Positions 7,756 to 36,732 of a stretch of DNA of 36,775 nucleotides are shown in pieces. Position 1 is the first letter of the stretch. Each line of letters begins with the position of its first letter. The position numbers were made by a program, and so were the translations under genes. The notes beneath the pieces were generated by a model. It was not told the origin of the DNA and made no database searches. It saw only the letters and a program-made list of their open reading frames with translations. This stretch comes from an archaeon 13_2_20CM_2_53_6 (lineage in GTDB: Archaea; Thermoproteota; Bathyarchaeia; 40CM-2-53-6): NCBI GenBank assembly GCA_001915065.1, contig MNDT01000059.1, positions 1 through 36,775 on the forward strand. Reading direction: 5' to 3'.

Positions 7756-9165
7756 CTATTGATGCTTCTTCAAGAATTCGGGACCATAGAAGGATGCTGC
7801 AGAACCCAGCTCTTCTTCGATCTGGATTAGACGGTTGTACTTACAGGTCCTCTCTCCTCTTGCAGGTGCTCCGGTCTTGATTTGCCCAGTGGCGAGACCG
7901 ACTGAGATATCCGCGATCGAAGTGTCTTCCGTCTCTCCTGACCTGTGGCTCATGACAAGTCCATAGCCCGCTCGTCGCGCCTTCTCCACTGCTTCGATAG
8001 TCTCAGTCAGCGTGCCTATCTGGTTGACCTTGACTAGGAGTGCGTTTGCGGCTCCGAGGCGTATTCCCATCTCTACTCGTTTGATATTTGTGACAAACAG
8101 GTCGTCTCCGACGATCTGGAATCTGGAACCGAGCTTCTTCGTAATTCTTGCGAAATTATCAAAATCCTCTTCGTGGAACGGGTCCTCGATCGACTTTAAT
8201 GGAAAACTTCGTCCGAGCTCATCATAGAGCCCGAACAGGTCTCCGCTGCTGATCTGTTTTCCATCAACCAAGTAAGTCTGTTTATCCTCTTTGTAGAAGC
8301 TGTCTGCGGCAGCGTCCACTCCCAACACTACATTCTGGCCTGGCGAATAGCCCGCTTCCTCGACCGCATCGTTGATCTGCCCCAACGCTGCCTCGACGCT
8401 GTTGATGTTCGGCGCGAATCCACCCTCATCGCCCACATTGATCGCGCTCTTCCCATACTTTGCCTCAAGTCTCGCTTTCAAGGCGTGGTAGACTTCTGTG
8501 CCGCATCGTAGCGCTTCGTGGAACGTTTTGAACCCTGCGGGAATAACCATGAATTCCTGAAATGATAGATCGTTGCCCGCGTGTTTTCCTCCGTTTATGA
8601 TGTTCATCATAGGTAGAGGCAGTACAAGTTTTCGTCCATCAGCTACCGTCCGATAGAGAGGGGAATTGGCCGTGTCCGCTGAAGCCCTCGCGAGCGCAAT
8701 CGAGATTCCAAGAATGGCGTTGGCTCCGAGCCTGCTCTTGTTCTCGGTTCCATCCAGCTCGTTGAGCAGTTGGTCGATCTTAGGCTGGTCCCGTGAGTCC
8801 AGACCCAGAATCTTTGGCGCGATAACTCTGCTGATGTTCTCTAACGCTTTCTGAACGCCCAGACCATTGTAGCGTTGTCTCTCGCCATCCCGTAGCTCTA
8901 GTGCCTCAAGATGGCCTTTCGATGCTCCAGAGGGTACTGAGAATCGACCAAAGCCGCTCTTCGTGTGCAGGTCGACCTGAACGGTAGGGTTCCCGCGAGA
9001 ATCAAGGATTTCCCTAGATACAATCTTCTCGACTCTGAACGCTGAGGCTTCCAAGATATTCCGACAGTCGGACAGTTGTACTGGCGCTTTTACCAGTTTC
9101 TCATCTTTCCTAGATTCGGACTTAGCCGCTGCTTTGCCTGTCCAGTTTCTGTGGGCTAATGTCAC
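7756..9165 (-). CDS. eno: Enolase
   Basis: Phosphopyruvate hydratase of glycolysis/gluconeogenesis (2-phosphoglycerate to phosphoenolpyruvate). Family motifs are plain: EILDSRGNPTVQVDL near the N-terminus, GASKGHLEALELRDG, GGKHAGND, the metal ligands in GVDAAADSF, EDPFHEED and GDDLFVTN, the catalytic Lys region LLVKVNQIG, and SHRSGETEDT. From the GTG at 9165 the protein has 469 residues with a Lys/Ser-rich N-terminal extension of about 38 residues not seen in typical enolases (about 425-435 aa). A TTG at 9051 would give the normal 431 residues and leave room for divergent promoters, so that start is more likely biologically. Confidence 0.95.
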   Translation of the reverse strand: MTLAHRNWTGKAAAKSESRKDEKLVKAPVQLSDCRNILEASAFRVEKIVSREILDSRGNPTVQVDLHTKSGFGRFSVPSGASKGHLEALELRDGERQRYNGLGVQKALENISRVIAPKILGLDSRDQPKIDQLLNELDGTENKSRLGANAILGISIALARASADTANSPLYRTVADGRKLVLPLPMMNIINGGKHAGNDLSFQEFMVIPAGFKTFHEALRCGTEVYHALKARLEAKYGKSAINVGDEGGFAPNINSVEAALGQINDAVEEAGYSPGQNVVLGVDAAADSFYKEDKQTYLVDGKQISSGDLFGLYDELGRSFPLKSIEDPFHEEDFDNFARITKKLGSRFQIVGDDLFVTNIKRVEMGIRLGAANALLVKVNQIGTLTETIEAVEKARRAGYGLVMSHRSGETEDTSIADISVGLATGQIKTGAPARGERTCKYNRLIQIEEELGSAASFYGPEFLKKHQ

Positions 9166-9708: not shown

Positions 9709-9825
9709 GCCGGGATGGCTGAGTGGTTAAAGCGACGGCCTCGAGATCCCGCAAGGGCATGTTGGCCATTGACATGATAGCCGTTGGGCGTCACGCCCTC
9801 GTGGGTTCGAATCCCACTCCCGGCG
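9709..9825 (+). tRNA. tRNA-Ser(CGA) with a 33-nt canonical intron
   Basis: A class II tRNA. The acceptor stem is GCCGGGA/TCCCGGC with discriminator G at 9825 and no encoded CCA. The anticodon stem is ACGGC/GCCGT, the anticodon CGA is at 9742-9744, there is a long variable arm GGGCG-TCA-CGCCC, and the T arm is GTGGG-TTCGAAT-CCCAC. The 33 bases at 9746-9778 separate position 37 from 38 and must be an intron at the usual archaeal site; they can form a hairpin (CATGT...ACATG). Removing them leaves 84 nt, right for tRNA-Ser. Confidence 0.95.
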
Positions 9826-20440: not shown

Positions 20441-22030
20441 TTGGCGCCCATAGTTGGAAAGGTCAAGGCCGCGGCCAACAGCTGGATAGCCTACGCCACG
20501 GGACTCAGACACCTCTTCCACAAGCCCTACACACTAAAGTTCCCACAACAACGATACGCCGTCGAGGCAGGTTACCGCGGAAGACACCTGCTGCACCTCG
20601 ACCGTTGCACGGGCTGTGGAATATGCGCCTGGATCTGCCCAGAAAAATGCATCACCATCGTCCAAAGAGGAGATCGATGGTATCCACAATACTTCTACGG
20701 ACGCTGCTGTTTCTGCCACTTCTGTGTGACCCCGGACACGCTGGTCACGACGAATCCATCGGTAACGCCGATCAGCCATGTAAAAGTTGGCGACAGAGTT
20801 CTAACTCATACAGGGCAATATCGTACAGTCCGCCAGATCCTGACCAGAAAATACTCAGGGAGGCTCTACTCGATCAAACCCCTTGGGGCTCCCTATCCAC
20901 TGAAAGTAACAGCCGACCACCCATTGCTAGTTGCTCCAAGACGATTTGTCAAGAAGAGGAGGTTGGAGAAGAAGCCAGGACACCTCGTCTGGAAGACGCC
21001 TACTCAGCTAAAACGGGGCGACTATCTAACAATCCCGATCGCAAAAGAGACTCGCGATACTGACCTTTACGAGCAAGACGTCGTCGTAGGGCAGCCAAGT
21101 ACCGGGAAACGGCTCGTCAGAAAATTGAAGCTCAAAGCCGAGCCCGACTTGTTTAGGCTCGTTGGATACTACCTAGCCGAGGGGCACACAATCCGAAGAA
21201 CAGTCGGGCTCACGTTTGGAGAGCATGAAACAGAGTATATCACCGACGCCTCCCAGCTTCTAGAAAAATTCTTTAACACACAATCAAAGAGATCCAACGT
21301 CCATAACTCGACTCAAGTACTGCTCCACTCCGTAGTAGCTGTTCAGTTCTTTGAGAACTTCGGTCGAGGAGCGGAGAACAAGAGACTGCCAGACTGGCTT
21401 ATGTTTGCGCCTCCGGAGAAACAGAGGCAGCTCGTCAAAGGCGCTTGGAGAGGGGACGGATACTTCCACCATCCAACCAAGGGCAACAGAGCGACATTCT
21501 TTGAATACGTAACCATATCGAGAACTTTGGCATTCCAGCTTCAACAAGTCCTCTTCAGACTCGGCATAATGGGACAAGTATTTTTCACGCAACACAAGAA
21601 CAGAAAGCCAGCCTACGTTGTCACCGTGCGGGGACGTTTTGTGGGGGCTATGGCCGCACTCATGGGACAAAGCTTCAACGACTCTAGGACCAAGTCATTC
21701 TCACGCTTCGAGATGGACGACAATTATGTCTATGCGCCTATTCAGAAGATTGCAGCATCGGATGTAAGCGACCAACCTGTGGTCAACCTCTCCGTTGAGG
21801 GAGATGAGTCATATGTTGCTGGCAACGTCACAGCCCACAATTGTACGGATTATTGTCCTGAGTTTGCGCTGGAAGAGACTGTAGAGTATGATATCGCCGA
21901 GTACACGAGGGAGTTGCTGGTCTGGTCACCTGAGAGATTGGCTAAGCCTCCTGTCAAGAAGGAGGACAAGTATGTCTTCAGCGTCGATGGTCCTAGAGGG
22001 GCTTCGCAGGTCGTGGAGCAGGAGCACTAG
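20441..22030 (+). CDS. fpoI: F420H2 dehydrogenase/complex I subunit I with an in-frame intein
   Basis: The 529-residue precursor starts at TTG 20441, 6 nt after fpoD. Residues 1-94 and 468-529 are a NuoI/FpoI-type 2x[4Fe-4S] ferredoxin. The first cluster motif is CTGCGICAWICP. The second is interrupted after RCCFCHF and resumes as CTDYCPEF. Splicing out residues 95-467 gives a 156-residue protein with CCFCHFCTDYCP, which restores the CxxCxxCxxxCP cluster motif, its third Cys being Cys468. The mature protein would relay electrons from F420H2/FpoF to subunit B. Without splicing the second cluster site is split by 373 residues. Confidence 0.95.
   Translation: MAPIVGKVKAAANSWIAYATGLRHLFHKPYTLKFPQQRYAVEAGYRGRHLLHLDRCTGCGICAWICPEKCITIVQRGDRWYPQYFYGRCCFCHFCVTPDTLVTTNPSVTPISHVKVGDRVLTHTGQYRTVRQILTRKYSGRLYSIKPLGAPYPLKVTADHPLLVAPRRFVKKRRLEKKPGHLVWKTPTQLKRGDYLTIPIAKETRDTDLYEQDVVVGQPSTGKRLVRKLKLKAEPDLFRLVGYYLAEGHTIRRTVGLTFGEHETEYITDASQLLEKFFNTQSKRSNVHNSTQVLLHSVVAVQFFENFGRGAENKRLPDWLMFAPPEKQRQLVKGAWRGDGYFHHPTKGNRATFFEYVTISRTLAFQLQQVLFRLGIMGQVFFTQHKNRKPAYVVTVRGRFVGAMAALMGQSFNDSRTKSFSRFEMDDNYVYAPIQKIAASDVSDQPVVNLSVEGDESYVAGNVTAHNCTDYCPEFALEETVEYDIAEYTRELLVWSPERLAKPPVKKEDKYVFSVDGPRGASQVVEQEH
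20723..21841 (+). mobile_element. Intein with LAGLIDADG homing endonuclease in FpoI
   Basis: A 373-residue intein (precursor residues 95-467). Splicing blocks are all present: block A CVTPDTLVTT with nucleophile Cys95, block B VTADHPLLV with the TxxH histidine His160, block F VVNLSVEGDESYVAGN, and block G TAHN followed by Cys468 as the +1 residue. Two LAGLIDADG motifs lie in the middle, LVGYYLAEG (240-248) and LVKGAWRGDG (331-340), each with its acidic residue, so the endonuclease may be active. The insertion point is a conserved cluster-ligand Cys, typical of inteins targeting invariant active-site codons. Confidence 0.96.
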
Positions 22031-36553: not shown

Positions 36554-36698
36554 TAGCGGGGGGTGGAGTTTCGGGTCCCACTCGGGCCCTTCGAACCACC
36601 GCTTGAGGATCGAGCTCTTCGATCAATCTCAGGGTTATGAGCCCTGCGGGTTAAACCTGGCGAGGCTTCTCCGATTAGAGAATCTACCCCACCCCGCT
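36554..36698 (-). tRNA. Initiator tRNA-Met(CAT) with three non-canonical introns
   Basis: The minus strand folds as an initiator tRNA: acceptor AGCGGGG/CCCCGCT (A1-T72), D stem GGGT/ACCC, anticodon arm CAGGG-CTCATAA-CCCTG with the three G-C pairs of initiators, T arm GGTGG-TTCGAAT-CCACC, discriminator A. To obtain this, three segments must be removed: 23 nt in the D loop (36661-36683), 24 nt in the variable loop (36604-36627) and 22 nt in the T loop (36568-36589, near position 59/60). This leaves a normal 76-nt tRNA. No intron is present at the usual 37/38 site. Each segment forms its own hairpin. Exact splice points may shift by a few bases. Confidence 0.93.
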
Positions 36699-36722: not shown

Positions 36723-36732
36723 CTTTTAAAAG
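36723..36732 (-). promoter_or_regulatory. TATA box of the initiator tRNA gene
   Basis: CTTTTAAAAG is centred about 30 nt upstream of the tRNA 5' end at 36698, the normal spacing for an archaeal promoter. Confidence 0.5.

Follow-up and report, generated by a model that had tools for sequence, protein, structure and literature searches.

We report here that the initiator tRNA-Met(CAU) gene of a soil Bathyarchaeia archaeon, 13_2_20CM_2_53_6, is interrupted by three short introns, none of them in the anticodon loop. The gene occupies 36698 to 36554 (145 nt, minus strand) at the right end of the window, by which we mean the whole analysed stretch of 36,775 nt of contig MNDT01000059.1. Judged from sequence, this is very probably an apparently single-copy initiator gene whose introns are of the protein-spliced archaeal kind and have no essential function. 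The introns of 23, 24 and 22 nt are located between tRNA positions 15 and 16 in the D loop (15/16), 47 and 48 in the variable loop (47/48), and 59 and 60 in the T loop (59/60), and their removal leads to a perfect 76-nt initiator tRNA-Met(CAU) with exons of 15+35+12+14 = 76 nt. The borders of exons and introns were set by template alignment to intronless homologues, and the gene is laid out from 5' to 3' as follows.

36724..36731, minus strand: putative promoter element, TATA-box-like TTTTAAAA, lying 26-33 nt before tRNA position 1
36684..36698, minus strand: exon 1, tRNA positions 1-15, from template alignment; exons identical in relatives
36661..36683, minus strand: intron 1 (D loop, 15/16), 23 nt, with a bulge-helix-bulge (BHB) motif and an empty site in eight same-genus species
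36626..36660, minus strand: exon 2, positions 16-47, with unbroken anticodon arm (CAU), from template alignment
36602..36625, minus strand: intron 2 (variable loop, 47/48), 24 nt, with a BHB motif and stem covariation in relatives
36590..36601, minus strand: exon 3, positions 48-59, from template alignment
36568..36589, minus strand: intron 3 (T loop, 59/60), 22 nt, with a BHB motif and stem pairing in relatives
36554..36567, minus strand: exon 4, positions 60-73; CCT follows, so that CCA is not fully encoded

An earlier sequence-only reading of this DNA had placed the gene exactly at 36554-36698, without giving the strand, and had stated that an initiator tRNA appears only when segments of the D, variable and T loops are removed and that the anticodon loop is unbroken. 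Both statements hold: ARAGORN recognises the spliced form only (AGCGGGGTGGGGTAGCCAGGTTTAACCCGCAGGGCTCATAACCCTGAGATCGGTGGTTCGAATCCACCCCCCGCTA, called as tRNA-Met(cat) with complete stems), and the anticodon loop CTCATAA is intact, with no intron at 37/38. In scans of the window, ARAGORN called no tRNA at all and Rfam only another one at 9709-9825, and a loose Rfam threshold on the unspliced gene gave a single weak and irrelevant match; since both programs missed the gene, counts of tRNA genes in Bathyarchaeia assemblies may be too low. The spliced sequence carries the CAU anticodon, the A1-U72 pair and three G-C pairs at 29-31:39-41, and A1-U72 together with these three G-C pairs is the hallmark of initiator tRNAs.

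The three junctions all present a BHB motif, for which the sequence-only reading had proposed to look, and each motif, with its 3-nt bulges on either side of a 4-bp helix, has 4/4 central pairs. Written in the order of central 4-bp helix, exon-side (outer) helix and intron-side (inner) helix, the counts are 4/4, 2/3, 4/4 for the D loop, the same (4/4, 2/3, 4/4) for the variable loop, and 4/4, 3/3, 3/4 for the T loop. Such folding is rare by chance, as dinucleotide shuffles of each intron match all three pair counts at a frequency of 0.0027 (15/16), 0.0006 (47/48) and 0.012 (59/60). A group I self-splicing intron was not matched in Rfam, and introns of 22-24 nt are to be compared with a catalytic core usually of more than 200 nt. 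A permuted or split gene was ruled out, with the four exons standing in order within 145 nt.

Comparison with relatives gives further evidence. The exons are identical in same-genus relatives, save one T-loop substitution in a single genome (G012), and the 15/16 intron is absent from eight genomes of the genus (G003, G008, G009, G012, G013, G015, G016 and G017), which show the exact empty site GGGGTAG^CCAGG. The splice register at 15/16 is fixed by G011, where the intron ends in T, and in two class-level relatives (G047 and G059) the initiator gene is uninterrupted. For covariation, the register was taken from the splice sites and not from a structure-fitted alignment, and the cells counted are sequences, not independent events. 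On this basis the 47/48 stem is paired in 222/225 cells, with 25 distinct sequences and 39 double-sided changes, against 74-111/225 when the partner is slid; the 15/16 stem is paired in 99/99 cells (59-72 with the partner slid) and the 59/60 stem in 143/162 (67-103 with the partner slid). The intron loops vary freely among the relatives. Taken as sequence evidence, these results indicate that the three introns are real insertions into the initiator gene.

As to copy number, the sequence of exon 1 occurs once in the assembly, and when the mature sequence was searched against the assembly, no second initiator gene came up, only pieces of the window gene and weak tRNA-like matches; the question of another initiator tRNA, which the sequence-only reading had raised, is thus answered in the negative for an assembly that is 80% complete. 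Six relatives at 92-95% completeness (G004, G012, G014, G016, G017 and G018) each have one initiator copy, and the locus is orthologous across the genus, with the same neighbour proteins beside it in nearly all. Displaced pieces of the gene were also seen at this locus: in G008 (C31:16589-16656, L043) a displaced 3' copy including intron sequence lies 60 nt downstream of the intact gene, and in G010 (C60:15942-16001, L050) a 3' copy including intron sequence stands at the orthologous site, the 5' half being absent. These copies resemble remnants left at the initiator gene by recombination or integration; no obvious integrase was noticed among nearby open reading frames (ORFs), which were read by eye with no search. 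Of the 18 genes from the genus and family that have comparable upstream sequence, 15 carry a TTTAAA motif starting at -32 or -33, and the upstream DNA differs in the remaining three (G003, G009 and G013). The initiator genes of these three (L044, L042 and L040, respectively) have neither the D-loop intron nor a TATA-like box at -32, and in G013 a TiaS-like gene is separated from the initiator tRNA gene by additional DNA that holds a pilin-like ORF.

The conserved-core pattern, matched against named genomes, returned 22 records, mostly 'Candidatus Bathyarchaeota' assemblies and many labelled by soil depth, which places the gene in soil Bathyarchaeia rather than in Thermoproteales, which the sequence-only reading had named among the archaea with several introns per tRNA. 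From 38 genomes of the order, 33 initiator genes were parsed, most of them splicing to an identical 76-nt sequence, and they carry one intron in 3 genes, two in 8, three in 17 and four in 5. Seven sites are used across the order (4/5, 15/16, 22/23, 29/30, 37/38, 47/48 and 59/60), and the 90 initiator introns all have at least 3/4 central pairs, 78 of them 4/4. The genes with four introns are those of G019 (L102, C17:7433-7579; 29/30, 37/38, 47/48 and 59/60), of G023 (L115), G028 (L113) and G031 (L114), which belong to one genus (4/5, 22/23, 37/38 and 59/60), and of G021 (L290; 4/5, 22/23, 37/38 and 47/48). Outside the order, in the same phylum, well-aligned initiator genes among the matches listed have 0-2 introns, except that of G288 (L251) with four (22/23, 37/38, 47/48 and 59/60); most of these outside genomes were found through the exon-1 pattern, so that genes broken within exon 1 are under-sampled. 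Three introns in an initiator gene, called unusual by the sequence-only reading, are ordinary within this lineage, where relatives have up to four. One contig filed as Candidatus Njordarchaeum guaymaensis (JAUQYT010000360.1, 3775-3822, L080) has the same 76-nt exons with introns at 29/30, 47/48 and 59/60, like G025, and is possibly a misbinned Bathyarchaeia contig.

The evolution of the three sites was followed on a tree of SerRS and EndA, which requires at least eight state changes at 15/16, three at 47/48 and one at 59/60; seven forks of this tree are poorly supported, hence the eight changes at 15/16 are approximate. Enolase was dropped as a tree marker because its copies within the genus form two groups, at 52-54% and at 78-93% identity. 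These two groups, measured against the window enolase (7756-9165, minus strand), suggest from their sequences a replacement or paralogy within the genus. The 59/60 and 47/48 introns are retained almost throughout the family. In G014 the D-loop intron has 44 nt and looks different from those of its neighbours, which would agree with an intron lost and later regained. The genus lends itself to direct study of how introns come and go, because the exons are near-identical and the D-loop intron is present, absent or different between close species.

The initiator gene is not alone in its genome in being broken. A BHB-guided parser run on tRNA-model matches gave usable models for 20 other tRNA genes, tRNAs too broken for the model and unresolved loci being left uncounted. 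Together with the initiator, the 21 parsed genes hold about 41 introns, close to two per gene; 20 of the 21 are interrupted, 15 have at least two introns and six have three, individual three-intron calls being provisional because the parser picks the cuts that complete a cloverleaf. Three introns were also parsed in the genes for Asp-GTC (L023), Pro-GGG (L022), Ala-GGC (L026) and Cys (L019). Elsewhere in the window, a Ser(CGA)-like tRNA at 9709-9825 (plus strand) has an insert in the anticodon loop according to Rfam, for which the parser gave no convincing splice, and an intein-like insert bearing a LAGLIDADG domain lies within a 4Fe-4S ferredoxin-type protein that is encoded at 20441-22030 (plus strand), adjoining NADH dehydrogenase-like subunits.

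Regarding the enzyme, the genome encodes two proteins of the splicing endonuclease EndA (PF01974), of 189 aa and 181 aa. In the 189-aa protein Tyr126, His134 and Lys165 match the catalytic triad, and Lys42 aligns to Lys44 in the crenarchaea-specific loop of Aeropyrum pernix EndA; the lysine of this loop is required for the broad substrate range of EndA (PMC6379350). Triad and loop lysine are kept in every relative of the order whose sequence covers them, and the 181-aa protein has the same domains without the triad. The heteromeric EndA that the sequence-only reading had suggested seeking is accordingly represented in the genome by a catalytic subunit with the loop lysine and an apparently non-catalytic one, and the two would fit an (alpha-beta)2 enzyme with activity on non-canonical sites, a quaternary structure that we infer from the sequences.

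In the processing that we propose, (alpha-beta)2 EndA would cut each intron at its two bulges after transcription, the exons would then be ligated, by RtcB as is assumed from general archaeal biology, and the excised introns would leave, probably as circles; CCA would be added after splicing, again as in archaea generally. From base-pair geometry, the BHB in the D loop would take up D-stem nt 10-13, the one in the variable loop would take up nt 40-45 and 49-50, from the anticodon and T stems, and the T-loop BHB would be compatible with an intact T stem as its outer helix. Because the 15/16 and 47/48 BHB folds exclude mature stems, splicing of the initiator pre-tRNA is likely to be stepwise; the predicted energies are close, -67.8 kcal/mol for free folding vs -63.3 with the three central helices enforced. 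Since these two BHBs would be incompatible with the D, anticodon and T stems of the mature tRNA, a fixed succession of cuts might further be imposed. It is doubtful, in our estimation, that production of the order's only initiator tRNA has to pass through three or four splicing steps in such a forced succession, and so forms a rate-limiting and possibly regulated step of translation.

Other explanations of the interrupted gene need to be weighed. That the insertions are assembly errors is scarcely credible: the close relatives are all metagenome assemblies too, but the same introns recur at the same sites in many independent assemblies, with paired changes in their stems. Such paired changes in introns, set beside exons near-identical across the genus, also speak against a decayed pseudogene with insertions whose working counterpart would be located in the 20% of the genome missing from the assembly. 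The incompleteness of the assembly and the truncated 3' copies in G008 and G010 would favour this view, yet the relatives at 92-95% completeness likewise have one, equally interrupted gene, and we regard a pseudogene as very improbable.

A different matter is whether selection maintains the introns for a role of their own, for example as guides for pre-tRNA modification or as a gate on the supply of initiator tRNA. Retention of the 59/60 and 47/48 introns through nearly the whole family, with one and three state changes on the tree, is what such a role would lead one to expect; however, the 15/16 intron is gained or lost among close species, with at least eight changes, the loops are free to vary, and Rfam matched the introns to no RNA family, guide-like or other, so that a selected role appears unlikely. 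Several points weigh against the interpretation that we prefer, namely a single-copy gene with protein-spliced introns of no essential function. The D-loop and variable-loop BHBs have each only 2/3 outer pairs, two G-U pairs stand within the central helix of the former, an assembly about 80% complete leaves room for a second initiator gene, and the gene is known here as DNA, its splicing and ligation being inferred. Nevertheless, the introns most likely lack an essential function and are one outcome of a lineage-wide gain and loss of tRNA introns, tolerated by a permissive endonuclease. The number of introns borne by an essential and apparently single-copy initiator tRNA gene shows to what extent tRNA genes can be interrupted where the splicing endonuclease is permissive.

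Among known systems, intron-rich tRNA genes in soil archaea have been described for the Asgard Atabeyarchaeia and Freyarchaeia, where 92-95% of tRNA genes are interrupted, over half with several introns and often at non-canonical sites (PMC11291895); these belong to another phylum, and the main text of that paper, as far as it was available, gives neither an initiator gene nor figures of introns per gene. No report of tRNA introns in Bathyarchaeia was found in the openly licensed literature. The tRNA-Thr locus of Caldiarchaeum resembles the present one in an intron presence that varies among close relatives and in displaced tRNA fragments, although it concerns another tRNA and lineage, and the change there was linked to a recombinase element (PMC3293823), none being identified here. 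Broken initiator genes are also on record: that of Thermofilum pendens is permuted, with its joint at 59/60 in addition to a 37/38 intron, and that of Nanoarchaeum equitans is split (PMC3218864). As in our case, an essential initiator tRNA depends on EndA in both, and the joint of Thermofilum is a site used here as well; in contrast, the window has one gene with exons in order and three introns, with no permutation or trans-splicing.

A further likeness is with Thermoproteales, in which short BHB introns stand at non-canonical sites, up to three per gene, and go together with an (alpha-beta)2 EndA (PMC8450103, PMC4033280). Their tRNA genes are stated in the tRNAscan-SE 2.0 paper to have 'up to three' introns (PMC8450103), a maximum also given in a review (PMC4033280), with an average of 0.84 introns per tRNA gene and 71 introns in 46 tRNA genes in Pyrobaculum calidifontis (PMC8450103); the genome studied here has about two per parsed tRNA gene. 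Thermoproteales are hyperthermophiles of another class, whereas the archaeon studied here is a soil member of Bathyarchaeia whose initiator gene holds three introns and leaves 37/38 free, and some of its relatives have four. No description of an archaeal tRNA with four introns was found in the main texts of the openly licensed literature, and five species of the order, with four initiator introns, stand above the maximum of three stated there. What was already known is the mechanism, BHB introns cut by EndA, and even three introns per gene; new against that literature are the lineage, the number of introns that burden the initiator tRNA, and genes with four introns, and the wider family extends the known range to four introns and seven sites in one tRNA, with fast turnover at 15/16.
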